Part shown: positions 8,356-57,588 of the stretch, piece by piece
Numbering within the stretch: the first letter of the stretch is position 1
Layout: each line of letters opens with the position of its first letter
The notes under the pieces: model-generated
What the model was told of the DNA's origin: nothing
Database searches by the model: none
Seen by the model: only the letters and a program-made list of their open reading frames with translations
Program-made: the position numbers and the translations under genes
NCBI GenBank assembly: GCA_000471045.1
Contig: KI301992.1
Span: 994,568-1,058,567 of the forward strand
DNA: 64,000 nucleotides
From: an actinobacterium LLX17
GTDB taxonomy: Bacteria; Actinomycetota; Actinomycetes; Propionibacteriales; Nocardioidaceae
Reading direction: 5' to 3'

Positions 8356-8826
8356 GTGCGCAGAGGGCGACGGCTCGGGGTCGACGTGGGCGACGTGCGC
8401 ATCGGCGTCGCGATCTGCGACCCCGACGGCATGATCGCCACGCCGGTCGAGACCGTGCCGGCCGGCCCGGACGCCCTGACCCGCCTCGTGGCGGTGGCCG
8501 ACGAGTACGAGGTGATCGAGATCGTCGTCGGTCTGCCGTACTCGATGTCGGGGCGTGAGGGCCCGGCAGCGACGAAGGTCCGAGGTGTCGTGGCCGAGCT
8601 CGTGACGCGCACCGAGCGCCCTGTGCGCCTCATCGACGAGCGCCTGAGCACCGTCAGTGCGGCAGGCATGCTCCGCGCCGGCGGGACCCGCGCGAAGGGC
8701 CAGCGCAAGGTGATCGATCAAGCAGCCGCCACTGTCATATTGCAGAATGCCTTGGACGGCGAACGTACCCGTGGCATCCCCCCGGGCGAGACGGTCGTCC
8801 CGCCACCCACTGAAGGAGACCCATGA
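8356..8826 (+). CDS. ruvX: Pre-16S rRNA nuclease YqgF/RuvX
   Basis: 156-residue RNase H-fold nuclease of the YqgF family, which trims the 5' end of pre-16S rRNA. Seen: GVDVGDVRIGVAICD (first catalytic Asp), VVGLPYSMSG, and RLIDERLSTVSA with the conserved Asp-Glu-Arg; later IDQAAATVILQ. The GTG at 8356 is the only good start near the conserved N-terminus. The stop overlaps a seven-codon mini-ORF (ATGA) that in turn overlaps mltG. Conserved neighbour of alaS and mltG. Confidence 0.93.
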   Translation: MRRGRRLGVDVGDVRIGVAICDPDGMIATPVETVPAGPDALTRLVAVADEYEVIEIVVGLPYSMSGREGPAATKVRGVVAELVTRTERPVRLIDERLSTVSAAGMLRAGGTRAKGQRKVIDQAAATVILQNALDGERTRGIPPGETVVPPPTEGDP

Positions 8827-8843
8827 GCGAGCGAGTCGCATGA
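8823..8843 (+). repeat. Minimal ATGA-bounded mini-ORF element between ruvX and mltG
   Basis: Encodes M-S-E-R-V-A-stop. It begins in the ruvX stop (ATGA, 8823-8826) and ends in the mltG start (ATGA, 8840-8843). It looks like an 17-base insertion into an ancestral ATGA gene overlap. Its ends (ATGAGCGAGCG ... GTCGCATGA) match the ends of the 84-nt elements at 19640 and 56555, so it may be an internally deleted copy. Confidence 0.55.
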
Positions 8844-18072: not shown

Positions 18073-18687
18073 ATGGTCCACCCTGCCGACGGACCGGATG
18101 CTGTGCCGGGACCTGTGCTCCCCCCATCCGACGAGACGTCCGTGCGCACCGTGCTGGACGACGGCGAGATCCATCGCGCGTTGACCCGCATCACCCACGA
18201 GATCCTCGAGCGCAACCACGGCTCGGCCGAGGTCGTGCTGCTGGGCATCCCGCGCCGGGGCGTCCCGCTGGCCCGCCGCATCGCTCGCCGCATGGGTGAG
18301 GTCGAGGGTCGCGAGATCCATGCCGGTGCGCTCGACGTCACGATGTACCGCGACGACCTGCGCATGAAGCCTGCCCGTCCGCTCGAGCACACCGAGATGC
18401 CCGACGACGTGGATGACAAGATCGTCGTGCTGGTCGACGACGTGCTGATGAGCGGCCGCACCATCCGCGCCGCGCTCGACGCCCTGGGCGACCTCGGTCG
18501 TCCGCGCGCCGTGCAGCTGGCCGTGCTGATCGACCGCGGCCACCGCGAGCTGCCCATCCGCGCCGACTACGTGGGCAAGAACCTGCCGACCGCCCTGACC
18601 GAGAAGGTGCGCGTGCAGCTGACCGAGGTCGACGAGGTCGACGACTCGGTCTCCATCGTCGGATCCAGCGGGGGAGGTGCGGCATGA
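18073..18687 (+). CDS. pyrR: PyrR bifunctional regulator / uracil phosphoribosyltransferase
   Basis: 204 residues. RNA-binding regulator of the pyr operon with uracil phosphoribosyltransferase activity. Seen: [28 protein letters not shown], and the PRPP-binding motif [21 protein letters not shown]. The C-terminus ([23 protein letters not shown] by parts) matches PyrR. The first ~15 residues ([18 protein letters not shown]) are extra; the ATG is fixed by the strong ribosome-binding site. It controls its own operon through the leader loop. Stop overlaps pyrB (ATGA). Confidence 0.96.
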
Positions 18688-19643
18688 AGAAGCACCTGCT
18701 GAGCGCCGGCGACCTCACGCGTGACGACGCCATCCGCGTGCTCGACACCGCGCAGGAGCTGCTGGGAGTCGCGCAGCGTCCGATCAAGAAGCTGCCCACC
18801 TTGCGCGGTCGCACCGTGGTCAACCTGTTCTTCGAGGACTCCACGCGCACCCGCATCTCGTTCGAGGCCGCCGCGAAGCGCCTCAGCGCCGACGTCATCA
18901 ACTTCTCGGCCAAGGGCTCGAGCGTGTCGAAGGGCGAGAGCCTCAAGGACACGGCGATGACCCTTCAGGCGATGGGCGCCGACGCGGTCGTCATCCGCCA
19001 CCACGCCTCGGGCGCGCCGCACCGCCTGGCCACCGCCGGCTGGACGAACGGCGCCGTGGTCAACGCCGGCGACGGCACCCACGAGCACCCCACGCAGGCG
19101 CTTCTGGATGCCTTCACGATGCGATCACACCTCGGCACAGACGGGGGAGTCGGACAGGACTTGGCCGGCAAGAACGTCACGATCGTCGGCGACGTCCTGC
19201 ACAGCCGGGTCGCCCGCTCGAACGCGCTGCTGCTCCACACGCTGGGCGCCAACGTCACGCTCGTCGCGCCGCCCACGCTGCTGCCGGTCGGGGTCGACGC
19301 CTGGCCGGTCGAGACGTCCTACAACCTCGACGACTCGCTCGAGAAGGCCGACGCGGTCATGATGCTGCGCGTCCAGCGCGAGCGGATGAACGCGTCCTAC
19401 TTCCCGAGCGCCCGCGAGTACAGCCGCCGCTACGGACTCGACACCGCCCGCATGAACCGCCTGCCCGAGCACGCGATCGTCATGCACCCCGGCCCGATGA
19501 ACCGCGGCATGGAGATCGGCGCCGACGTCGCCGACTCCGGCCGCTCAGTCATCGTCGAGCAGGTCACCAACGGTGTCGCGGTCCGCATGGCCGTGCTGTA
19601 CCTGCTGGTCGGCGGGGCCACGAACGACGAGGGAGAAGCATGA
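18684..19643 (+). CDS. pyrB: Aspartate carbamoyltransferase catalytic subunit
   Basis: 319 residues; makes carbamoyl-aspartate from carbamoyl phosphate and aspartate. Seen: carbamoyl phosphate motif [43 protein letters not shown] and [17 protein letters not shown]. No pyrI is present. The start overlaps pyrR (ATGA); the stop overlaps an 84-nt mini-ORF element rather than pyrC directly. Confidence 0.97.
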
Positions 19644-19723
19644 GCGAGCGCCAGCGAGCGAACATCGAAGCGGTCATGGCGGCATCGCCTACCTTCGCGC
19701 ACTTCGAGGCGGTGGCGGCATGA
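19640..19723 (+). repeat. 84-nt MIRU-like mini-ORF element between pyrB and pyrC
   Basis: A 27-codon ORF starting [16 protein letters not shown] and ending VAA-stop. It begins in the pyrB stop (ATGA, 19640-19643) and ends in the pyrC start (ATGA, 19720-19723). The same length and both ends recur at 56555-56638, and a shortened form at 8823-8843. The arrangement looks like an 80-bp insertion that duplicated an ATGA overlap, similar to MIRUs in Mycobacterium tuberculosis. Whether the peptide is made or useful is unknown. Confidence 0.7.
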
Positions 19724-21021
19724 CGAAGTACGTGATCCGGCGCGCCCGCCTGCTGGGCGAGGACGTCGTCGACATCGCGATCGCCGACGGCGTCATCACC
19801 GCGATCGGCACCGACCTGCCCGCCGACGAGGCGACCGAGGTCGACGCCACGGGCCTGGTCGCGCTGCCCGGGCTCGTCGACCTGCACACGCACCTGCGGG
19901 AGCCGGGCCGTGAGGACGCCGAGACCGTGTTCACCGGCACCCGCGCCGCCGCTCGCGGTGGGTTCACCTGCGTGCACGCCATGGCCAACACCGATCCCGT
20001 CGCCGACACCGCCGGCGTCGTCGAGCAGGTCTGGCGGCTCGGCCGCGAGGCCGGCTACTGCGACGTGCAGCCGGTCGGCGCCGTCACCGTCGGCCTGGGC
20101 GGCACGCAGCTCGCCGAGCTGGGCGCGATGGCCGAGTCCGCCGCCAACGTCCGTGTCTTCTCCGACGACGGCAAGTGCGTCTCCGACGCCGTGCTGATGC
20201 GTCGCGCCCTGGAGTACGTGAAGGCGTTCGACGGTGTCGTCGCGCAGCACGCCCAGGAGCCGCGGCTCACCGAGGGCGCTCAGATGAACGAGGGCCTGCT
20301 GTCGGGCGAGCTCGGCCTGACGGGTTGGCCGGCCGCCGCCGAGGAGGCGATCGTCGCCCGCGACTGCGTGCTCGCCGCGCACGTCGGCTCGCGCCTGCAC
20401 GTCTGCCACCTGTCCACCCGCGGCTCGGTCGAGATCGTCCGCTGGGCCAAGAGCAAGGGCTGGGACGTCACCGCCGAGGTCACGCCGCACCACCTGCTGC
20501 TGACCGACGACCTGGTGCGCGGCTATGACCCCATCTACAAGGTCAACCCGCCCCTGCGCACGGCCGACGACGTCGCCGCCGTCCGCGAGGGCCTGGCCGA
20601 CGGCACGATCGACATCGTCGCCACCGACCACGCGCCGCACCCCATGGAGGACAAGGAGTGCGAGTGGTCCGCTGCCGCCTTCGGCATGCAGGGCCTCGAG
20701 ACCGCGCTCTCGGTGGTGCAGCACGCCATGGTCGACACGGGCCTTCTCACCTGGGCGCAGGTCGCGGAGCGCATGTCGGCCACGCCCGCCCGCATCAGCC
20801 GCGTCGGCGGCGGCCACGGTCGCCCCCTCGAGGTCGGCGAGCCCGCCAACCTGGTGCTGCACGATCCCGCCGCGACCCGCACGGTGGAGTCGACGGACAC
20901 CGCGTCGTTGTCGCGGAACAATCCCTACACGGGACTCGAGCTACCGGGTCGCGTCGTCGCCACGTTCCTGCGTGGCACCCCCACCGTCCTCGACGGACAC
21001 CTGCAGGAGGCAGTCAGATGA
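19720..21021 (+). CDS. pyrC: Dihydroorotase
   Basis: 433-residue zinc amidohydrolase that cyclises carbamoyl-aspartate to dihydroorotate. Seen: [12 protein letters not shown] (metal-binding His pair and substrate Arg), the internal Asp/His sites [18 protein letters not shown] and EVTPHHLLL, and [13 protein letters not shown] with the catalytic Asp. The length and motifs are those of type I (PyrC/AllB-like) enzymes. The ATG at 19720 overlaps the mini-ORF stop; the stop overlaps carA (ATGA). Confidence 0.97.
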
Positions 21022-54333: not shown

Positions 54334-55382
<1,049 letters not shown>

Positions 55383-55383
<1 letters not shown>

Positions 55384-56537
55384 TGTCAGTCACCGCAGCC
55401 CAGGGCTTCCGCGCCGCGGGTGTCACCGCCGGCCTGAAGACCAGCGGGGCGTCCGACCTCGCGGTCGTCGTCAACGACGGGCCCTCCTCGGCGGCCGCCG
55501 CCGTGTTCACCAGCAACCGGTGCAAGGCCAACCCGGTCCTGTGGAGCGAGGAGGCCATCAAGGCCGGCTCCGCGCGGGCCGTCGTGCTCAACTCGGGCGG
55601 CGCCAACTGCTACACCGGCACCGAGGGATTCGTCGTCACCCACCGCACGGCCGAGCGCGTCGCCGAGCAGCTGGGCATCGGTGCGGTCGACGTCCAGGTG
55701 TGCTCGACGGGTCTGATCGGCCTGCCGCTGCCGCTGGACAAGCTGGTGTCCGGCGTCGACGCCGCCGTGGCCGATCTGTCGGCTGACGGCGGTGAGGCCG
55801 CCGCGACGGCGATCATGACCACCGACACCGTCAGCAAGCAGGCCCACGTCGCCCACCCGGACGGGTGGACCGTGGGTGGCATGGCCAAGGGCGCGGGCAT
55901 GCTCGCACCGGCGCTGGCCACGATGCTTGTCGTCATCACCACTGACGCCGACCTGCCGTCGCACCAGCTCGATGCTGCGCTGCGGCTCGCGACGGCGCAG
56001 TCCTTCGACCGGCTCGACTCCGACGGCTGCCAGTCGACCAACGACACCGTGCTGCTGATGGCGAGCGGTGCCTCGGGCGTCAGCCCGGCGGTCGAGGAGC
56101 TCGCGGAGGTGCTCACCCAGGTGTGCCGCGACCTCGCGCTGCAGCTGCTGGCCGACGCCGAGGGCGCCGACCACGAGATCTCGATCGAGGTGCGGGGTGC
56201 GGCCAGCGAGGCCGACGCCCTCGAGGTGGGTCGCTCGGTGGCCCGCAGCAACCTGTTCAAGGCCGCGATCTTCGGCAAGGACCCCAACTGGGGCCGGGTG
56301 CTCGCCTCGGTGGGCACCACGGAGGCCGCGTTCGACCCGGCCGACCTCGACGTCGCGCTGAACGGCGTGTGGGTGTGTCGCAACAGCGGCGTGGGGGAGT
56401 CGGTCGACGGCATCGACCTCAGCCCGCGCGACGTCACCGTGACGATCGACCTCAAGTCCGGCGAGCACGCCGCGACCATCTGGACCAACGACCTCACGCA
56501 CGCCTACGTGCACGAGAACTCCGCCTACTCGAGCTGA
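55383..56537 (+). CDS. argJ: Glutamate N-acetyltransferase / ornithine acetyltransferase
   Basis: 384 residues; recycles the acetyl group from acetylornithine to glutamate. Self-cleaving: the nucleophile lies in [20 protein letters not shown], cut expected between Ala and Thr of ATML. Also [20 protein letters not shown] and [14 protein letters not shown]. The ATG at 55383 overlaps the argC stop; longer in-frame versions lie inside argC. An 84-nt mini-ORF element follows. Confidence 0.96.
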
Positions 56538-56554: not shown

Positions 56555-56638
56555 ATGAACGAGCGCCAGCGAGTGAATCATCAGGCAGTCATGCCGCCAT
56601 CTGCCCATCGTTGTTCTTCTCGGCAGGTGGCGGCATGA
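56555..56638 (+). repeat. 84-nt MIRU-like mini-ORF element between argJ and argB
   Basis: 27 codons beginning [16 protein letters not shown] and ending VAA-stop, exactly as long as the element at 19640. It ends in the argB start as ATGA (56635-56638). Inside, TCATGCCGCCA (56589-56599) pairs perfectly with TGGCGGCATGA (56628-56638), so the argB start codon lies in an 11-bp stem that translation of the mini-ORF would open. The 5' end is 17 bases after the argJ stop rather than overlapping it. Confidence 0.7.
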
Positions 56639-57587
56639 GCCCTGATGAGTGGAACCCGGCCGACTGGAAGAAGGCGACCGACAAGGCCGTCACGCTCGCG
56701 CACGCCCTGCCGTGGCTGAAGAAGTACCACGGCAAGGTCATCGTGGTGAAGTACGGCGGCAACGCCATGACCGACGAGACGCTGAAGCAGGCGTTCGCCG
56801 AGGACATCGTGTTCCTGCGACTGGCGGGGTTCAAGCCGGTCGTCGTGCACGGTGGCGGTCCGCAGATCAGCGCGATGCTCGATCGTCTCGGCATCGAGTC
56901 GGAGTTCCGCGGTGGCCTGCGGGTCACGACGCCGGAGGCCATGGAGGTCGTGCGCATGGTGCTGACCGGCCAGGTCGGGCGCGAGCTCGTCGGTCTGCTC
57001 AACCATCACGGCGCACTGGCCGTGGGTCTGTCCGGTGAGGACGCGGGCCTGTTCACGGCCGAGCGCACCCAGCCGATCGTCGACGGCGAGCCGGTCGACG
57101 TGGGTCTGGTGGGTGAGGTCGTGGGCGTGCGGCCCGAGGCCGTGCAGGACCTCATCGACGCCGGGCGCATCCCGGTGGTCTCCACCGTCGCGCCCGACGC
57201 GTCGGGCCAGGTGCACAACGTCAACGCCGACACCGCCGCCGCGGCGCTGGCCGTGGCGCTGGGCGCCGAGAAGCTGCTGGTGCTCACGGACGTCGAGGGC
57301 CTGTACGCCGACTGGCCGAGCTCGAGCGACGTCATCGGGGAGATCAGCCCCGAGGCGCTCGAGGAGCTCATCCCGACGCTGGCCAGCGGCATGATCCCGA
57401 AGATGACCGCGTGCCTCAAGGCCGTCCAGGGCGGGGTCAAGCGCGCCACGGTCGTCGACGGCCGCGAGCCGCACTCGGTGCTGCTGGAGTTCTTCACCGA
57501 CGAGGGCGTCGGCACGCAGGTCGTGCCGGGTGCGGAGACGCGCATCCGCACCGCCATGTACGCCACGAGCGTCGACAAGGAGATGTG

Positions 57588-57588
<1 letters not shown>
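56635..57588 (+). CDS. argB: Acetylglutamate kinase
   Basis: 317 residues; phosphorylates N-acetylglutamate. Seen: [22 protein letters not shown] (Lys and Gly loop, by parts), [54 protein letters not shown]. The ATG at 56635 overlaps the mini-ORF stop; an in-frame ATG at 56611 lies within the mini-ORF. Likely arginine-inhibited. Overlaps argD (TGATG). Confidence 0.96.

Follow-up and report, generated by a model that had tools for sequence, protein, structure and literature searches.

In the 64-kb window, i.e., the whole stretch of DNA that was analysed, a mini-ORF sits between pyrB and pyrC and shares an ATGA with each of them, and a second mini-ORF of equal length precedes argB (Table 1). 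The names pyrB, pyrC, argJ, argB, ruvX and mltG are NCBIfam matches. Each of the two ORFs runs from ATGA to ATGA and is open for 27 amino acids plus a stop, as the original prediction had read them, and direct comparison confirms that 21 of the first 24 bases are common to both copies and that the last 13 bases are identical. The same prediction held that the middle differs; the sequences do differ, but the region is a hairpin whose two arms co-vary. This hairpin, the Shine-Dalgarno-like stretch within its 3' arm and the agreement of host flank and right end described below did not figure in that prediction. Likewise, the conserved ends reported ahead of argB are present, but the left ATGA of this copy is not the argJ stop, as argJ ends 17 nt upstream and the copy occupies argB's own start codon. 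The argJ family match starts at residue 68 of its ORF, so the true start of argJ probably lies further into the ORF. A shorter ORF between ruvX and mltG is also present as described, spanning 21 nt from ATGA to ATGA; it can be viewed as a remnant or a minimal version of the element, which may have originated by decay. Allowing up to three mismatches, the 20-nt head occurs twice in the window versus 0.05 occurrences expected, which, together with 15 full copies found in the genome by a covariance model, excludes chance as an explanation for the copies in the window.

Table 1. Element copies, their parts and neighbouring genes in the window.
Feature	Position	Strand	Remarks
Full element copy at pyrB/pyrC	19640..19723	+	84-nt mini-ORF; left ATGA contains the pyrB stop, right ATGA the pyrC start
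Conserved head, pyrB/pyrC copy	19640..19661	+	ATGA GCGAGC GCCA GCGAGC GA
Hairpin 5' arm, pyrB/pyrC copy	19674..19690	+	two mismatches
Hairpin loop, pyrB/pyrC copy	19691..19706	+	
Hairpin 3' arm, pyrB/pyrC copy	19707..19723	+	Shine-Dalgarno-like stretch and pyrC start codon
Full element copy at argB start	56555..56638	+	84-nt mini-ORF; right ATGA contains the argB start
Hairpin 5' arm, argB copy	56589..56605	+	all positions paired
Hairpin loop, argB copy	56606..56621	+	
Hairpin 3' arm, argB copy	56622..56638	+	AGGTGG and argB start codon
21-nt ATGA...ATGA ORF between ruvX and mltG	8823..8843	+	head start joined to tail GCATGA; in frame; without hairpin
pyrB	18684..19643	+	5' neighbour of pyrB/pyrC copy; NCBIfam
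pyrC	19720..21021	+	3' neighbour, start now the element's right ATGA; NCBIfam
argJ ORF	55182..56537	+	5' neighbour of argB copy; NCBIfam
argB	56635..57588	+	3' neighbour of argB copy; NCBIfam

Further copies at gene junctions had been anticipated, and the search for them found more at gene starts. The covariance model, built from six copies found by head sequence alone, detects 15 full copies at 13 sites in the source genome (3,000,939 bases) with E-values of 2.5e-10 or better; six of the 15 are the model's own input, and the other nine come from a search in which the hairpin adds to the score. Three copies form a head-to-tail array with an 80-nt pitch, in which an ATGA is shared between units. 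All 15 copies are 75, 84 or 87 nt in length, and in each an uninterrupted frame leads from the first codon into a stop overlapping the next start, in the same sense as the downstream gene. The downstream genes include pyrC, argB, parB, nuoD, rpsE and rsgA (NCBIfam names), and others named from translations only, the dapA/rnj and rsmH/ftsL sites among them. The copy at rpsE does not overlap an upstream stop, and its left end is GTGC. Weaker matches to the model include hairpin-less heads that form the first codons of parB (L033), of an aminopeptidase-like gene named by translation (L032) and of another gene (L037), at position 1501 of these loci.

The element comprises 80 nt plus a shared DTGA. 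It begins with a fixed head, ATGAGCGAGCG, followed by one or two free bases and AGCGAG, and continues through a short spacer into a terminal hairpin, TCAT...ATGA, with 17 pairs and a loop of about 16 nt, the 3' arm of which contains a Shine-Dalgarno-like stretch and terminates with ATGA. The head (e.g., 19644-19659) follows the pattern GC-GA-GC-GNA (or GNNA)-GC-GA-GC, and the motif GA-GC-GNA-GC-GA recurs at the tip of the hairpin in many other genera. In single-stranded DNA, mini-loops of this GNA type, with tandem G-A pairs, have unusual stability.

To describe the reading frame in the genus, taken to be Aeromicrobium, we used 73 copies, the best-scoring ones with loci: the 15 of the source genome, the single best copy from each of 29 genus genomes and the next 29 best of one genome (G010). 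All 73 end in DTGA, and 70 are open with a length that is a multiple of three, the exceptions being L051, L313 and L323. In 55 of the 73, an upstream frame open for at least 100 codons runs into the left TGA; the right DTGA leads into a same-sense ORF of at least 60 amino acids in 67 and into a tandem copy in six. In the full lists of matches above 50 bits, the length is divisible by three in 46 of 48 (G010) and in 36 of 42 (G019 and G022), and broken frames thus do occur, with two and six such lengths, respectively. For example, the orthologous copies L313, L337 and L343 are frameshifted in G010 and G022 and intact in G019, and the hairpin is kept in all three. In other genera, where the scan required an ATGA at some distance in any frame, the 119 stretches listed yield 128 distinct heads, and among these matches 118 of the 128 heads end in frame at DTGA versus 15 and 5 in the other two frames; of the ATGAs at the scanned distance, again among the matches listed, 124 are in frame, compared with 7 and 3 in the two shifted frames.

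The hairpin is maintained by paired changes. In the six copies found by head alone, 95.1% of the stem cells are paired. Across the 15 source-genome copies the value is 92.9%, with 9 of the 17 pairs changed on both sides. None of 500 shuffles reached this level, and pairing fell to 33-54% when the partner was shifted by one to three columns; the six-copy test is the cleaner of the two, since nine of the 15 copies were found with the hairpin-scoring model. Pairing of at least nine of the last ten bases is observed in 66 of 72 distinct Aeromicrobium copies versus 3.3% of shuffles, and, with the upstream arm, in 69 of 119 distinct elements of other genera among the matches listed versus 2.1% of shuffles. 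Whole-element folding z-scores in other genera, from a shuffle test that gives a weak signal, average -1.0, with 17 of 86 below -2. In the stem of one orthologous pair (L307/L348), C-G is exchanged for T-A in one base pair and G-T is changed to A-T in another; across eight ortholog comparisons, some of which share a sequence, there are six further pair-keeping changes and two gains, and three of the eight show one lost pair each. Rfam returned no match for positions 19000-20500 of the window at E-values up to 1, and in the 12 loci with source-genome copies its sole gathering-level match is the mraW RNA, which lies away from the element; a known RNA family was accordingly rejected, with no Rfam match on the element itself. 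The mraW RNA (RF01746, 58.7 bits) is located at L023:372-470, upstream of an rsmH-like gene in the source genome.

Comparison with relatives reveals the corresponding sites in their empty form. At pyrC, loci were compared in 29 relatives, out of 46 other genomes with a hit. Every one of these loci has a bare ATGA or GTGA in which pyrB stops and pyrC starts, and the 80 extra bases are found only in the source genome, which identifies the pyrB/pyrC copy as an insertion into the ATGA overlap, as the original prediction proposed. At nuoC/nuoD, 29 loci were retrieved, and the element is absent from all 28 that are readable; 22 of these display a plain overlap (20 DTGA and 2 CTGATGA), and six carry other sequence. 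Empty sites in sister species, foreseen as the mark of mobility, are thus present at both junctions, and the refuting outcome, one spacer and one conserved peptide shared by all relatives, was not observed. By alignment of the flanks in the arg operon, the copies of the source genome (G000) and of G038 lie at different junctions, each genome lacking the other's copy; the G038 locus is without the argB copy. Several sites, namely dapA/rnj, rsmH/ftsL and a hemA-like gene (all named by translation), are occupied in several species, and one copy at the hemA-like gene is decayed.

Some relatives carry other sequence at these junctions. In G030 (L078), the ATGA is followed by GCGAGCGCCAG, fused to the pyrC start, giving the head-like scar ATGAGCGAGCGCCAG and a protein that begins MSERQYVIRR; this looks like a head left behind after loss of the remaining element. 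A shorter scar may be present at the pyrC start of G042 (L081), where the protein reads MSEQYLIR. Decay of the element may in this way leave N-terminal extensions on proteins. The six nuoC/nuoD loci with other sequence (L273, L276, L277, L278, L281 and L298) have these other sequences after the nuoC stop, some with a hairpin-like GCTCGCTCCGCTCGC, and several of them resemble a partial repeat of the nuoC 3' end.

Matches are found in 44 of the 49 genus genomes, the source included, with 1 to 78 in each; one of the five genomes without a match is 99% complete and 3.7 Mb in size. Beyond the genus, a scan of genome contigs for the head pattern, with ATGA required at both ends, yields at least 119 stretches, at least 111 of them with an intact element. 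Intact elements occur in at least 23 actinobacterial genera, such as Micromonospora, Nocardia, Nocardioides, Streptomyces, Microbispora, Nonomuraea and Flexivirga; the matches listed span 24 actinobacterial genera as titled in their sequence records, of which Pseudonocardia, represented by a metagenome bin, has no intact element by the filter used. In the genus taken as Mycobacterium, the head is found in 7 of 248 genomes. We take the breadth of the element from the pattern scan, because the phylum-wide model search, with hits in 3 of 396 genomes including the source and one outside the genus, scored just 11 candidates per genome with a model built from the genus. A Myxococcales metagenome bin (L208) also has an intact element, which may reflect contamination or transfer.

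Fold predictions of naked RNA, comparing 69 distinct open copies with their flanks and 29 empty pyrC starts, place the downstream start codon inside the hairpin. The predicted probability that the downstream ATG is unpaired has a median of 0.00 in the 69 copies (below 0.1 in 54) versus 0.52 at the empty starts (below 0.1 in 3). When the 5' arm is masked, mimicking a translating ribosome, the predicted median for the ATG rises to 0.48, with 32 of the 69 copies above 0.5, and for positions -13 to -6 relative to the ATG the value increases from 0.10 to 0.33. Predicted pairing of the stretch ahead of the ATG with the anti-Shine-Dalgarno tail averages -11.1 kcal/mol, compared with -3.4 for base-shuffled sequence and -7.7 at empty starts, and is lower than shuffled in 69 of 69 copies. 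The two copies in the window behave differently: the argB copy switches in the prediction, its ATG going from 0.00 to 0.78 unpaired with the arm masked, and the pyrB/pyrC copy, with its weak hairpin, has almost no switch (0.34 to 0.38).

From the predicted folds, it is probable that the hairpin and the mini-ORF together hand ribosomes on to the interrupted gene, a scheme in which we infer both the translation of the mini-ORF and the coupling. After insertion, the host's own ribosome-binding site would start the mini-ORF, and the ribosome translating it would open the hairpin; this ribosome would then terminate at the TGA overlapping the next ATG and re-initiate on the host gene, aided by the exposed Shine-Dalgarno-like stretch. 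We propose that the insertion would be tolerated, even before rpsE, nuoD and parB, because the host gene would stay expressed.

The host sequence at the left of the element agrees with the element's right end. For this comparison, 62 non-tandem copies were taken from the 73 by setting aside six copies just downstream of another copy, four with at least eight matching flank bases, and the rpsE copy. Across the NNDTGA, left and right ends agree at D in 60 copies (52.7 expected), at -1 in 55 (48.4) and at -2 in 37 (23.0), each with p<0.0002; further out there is no clear agreement, with -5 at p=0.027. Taken jointly, the three positions give p=0.0003 in the source genome, p=0.0014 in G010 and p<0.0001 in the genus, and the lowest p among control positions is 0.07. 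Concordance is weaker in 87 copies from other genera (-1, p=0.0024; -2, p=0.029; -3, p=0.043; -4, p=0.0008), with repeats counted once and 45 candidates dropped (21 tandem, 11 without an ORF, 9 with a long flank match and 4 at edges). In the 62 copies, the left and right ends are identical at all three bases in 35; the right end matches the complement of the 5' arm in 54, and the left end does so in 31. The concordance would reflect either a short duplication after which the stem was repaired or a pairing-guided choice of site. On the latter view, the foot of the hairpin would be a guide, whose 5' arm, TCAT plus two further bases, would base-pair with the NNDTGA start chosen for insertion, served by non-Y1 machinery, and the same pairing would later act as the translation switch; we hold this reading to be doubtful, though conceivable. 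If it were true, a single sequence would combine the roles of targeting device, coding sequence and regulator, across much of a bacterial class. The left flanks of L023, L058, L061 and L301 match 10-15 bases of the element's right end with no head upstream; they may represent tandem copies that have decayed, with the remaining tail forming the end of the upstream gene.

Two candidate means of movement were rejected. The Y1 transposase (PF01797) is found in 0 of 49 genus genomes, with matches in 5 of 14 control genomes. Carriage by a phage or plasmid was set aside after one copy gave no match against phage and plasmid collections (blastn) and the viral contig with a pattern match, L270, proved to be without such a mini-ORF; this contig carries several GAGCGNAGCGAG-like motifs at L270:9739-9814 and no mini-ORF of the element's kind. 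Among 30 copies from G010, a genome with 58 matches, the dispersed ones are at most 85% identical, with a median of 67%, arguing that these copies are old or that mobility is slow, with no recent burst. One subfamily in the source genome shows 86-92% identity between separate places.

The element thus has dispersed copies, empty counterparts in relatives, an open frame, a hairpin with paired changes and a host that agrees with it at NNDTGA. We consider it probable that it is a short non-autonomous mobile element, of 80 nt plus the shared DTGA, that enters actinobacterial genes at NNDTGA start codons and passes ribosomes on by termination-reinitiation; the route of its mobility we infer. The main alternative, which we regard as unlikely, is a DNA-level repeat of the REP/BIME kind, retained because it binds protein or serves its own transposition, whose frame persists because frame-breaking copies at start codons have mostly been purged. 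The head is indeed fixed as DNA beyond coding need, with codon 3 being GAG in 72 of 73 copies and codon 6 being CGA in 49 of 73, frame-broken copies retain the hairpin, and the concordance between host and right end points to recognition of DNA. Yet a DNA-level repeat alone leaves unexplained both the placement at starts and the Shine-Dalgarno-like stretch before the ATG in 69 of 69 copies, Y1/RAYT enzymes are absent, and this explanation overlaps with a mobile coupling element rather than excluding it.

Attenuator-like leaders usually consist of a mini-ORF and a hairpin concealing the next start, and the element fits this anatomy; however, a non-mobile cis-regulatory leader evolved for gene control is highly improbable here, given that the same element precedes genes as unrelated as pyrC, argB, parB, nuoD, rpsE and rsgA, exists as a tandem array and does not occur at these genes in relatives. 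We give hardly any credence to an old family of small proteins (MSERSER peptides) that would reside in operons and act as peptides, despite a frame open in 70 of 73 copies and an N-terminus common across genera, because the peptide past the head differs within and between genomes, which led us to reject a conserved peptide, because relatives have the same junctions without the element, and because the conserved part is conserved as nucleotides.

If a mobile coupling element is the correct reading, it would extend start-codon insertion with built-in coupling, described for mycobacteria, to a repeat present in about two dozen genera of actinobacteria, whose hairpin makes the coupling mechanism testable. 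For annotation, it would mean that mini-ORFs have been missed and that some proteins, ParB among them, carry head scars at their N-termini. The copies would also provide natural experiments on termination-reinitiation, and they raise the question of the mobilising enzyme.

Among known systems, REP/BIME repeats (mobilised by RAYT) and non-autonomous IS200/IS605 (Y1) derivatives consist of a short hairpin repeat beside a fixed tetranucleotide, and assignment to REP/RAYT or to the IS200/IS605 derivatives calls for a cognate Y1 (HUH) transposase in the genome. The present element resembles them in the hairpin beside a fixed tetranucleotide and in its tandem copies, and differs in its full-length ORF at start codons and in the lack of Y1_Tnp in all 49 genus genomes. 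It resembles leader-peptide and uORF coupling hairpins in having an upstream mini-ORF whose translation should open a hairpin hiding the start, whereas its unit is a dispersed insertion and not a gene-specific leader. A description of this element was not found in the title-level listings of the literature searched.

The closest likeness is to the mycobacterial MIRUs, with which the original prediction had compared it. The two share a small ORF overlapping both neighbours, gene-sense orientation, similar size, tandem arrays and start-codon insertion with the -4 coupling geometry (PMC12548453, PMC4473831, PMC4213456, PMC2734929); according to the 2025 review, MIRUs appear to be mobile, and their insertion at start codons leaves a -4 spacing (PMC12548453). 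In orientation, the present element agrees through the same-sense ORF downstream of 67 of 73 copies and the tandem copy downstream of six; in start-codon insertion, it agrees in geometry, as 29 of 29 relatives have a bare DTGA where pyrB and pyrC meet. In four genomes of the genus taken as Mycobacterium, no array with a period of 45-115 was present in 30 histidine kinase loci (of 40 matches). What separates the two is the hairpin: the definition of MIRUs in the 2015 review includes the absence of dyad symmetries (PMC4473831), whereas the present element has a covarying 17-bp stem, a strong hairpin in which both the downstream start and a Shine-Dalgarno-like stretch are enclosed. The host range of the element, many actinobacterial genera, also differs, and the comparison with MIRUs is one of published descriptions. 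The earlier comparison therefore stands for the mode of action, an ORF overlapping its neighbours and insertion at start codons, but not for the classification: the element should work like a MIRU and is not filed as one.
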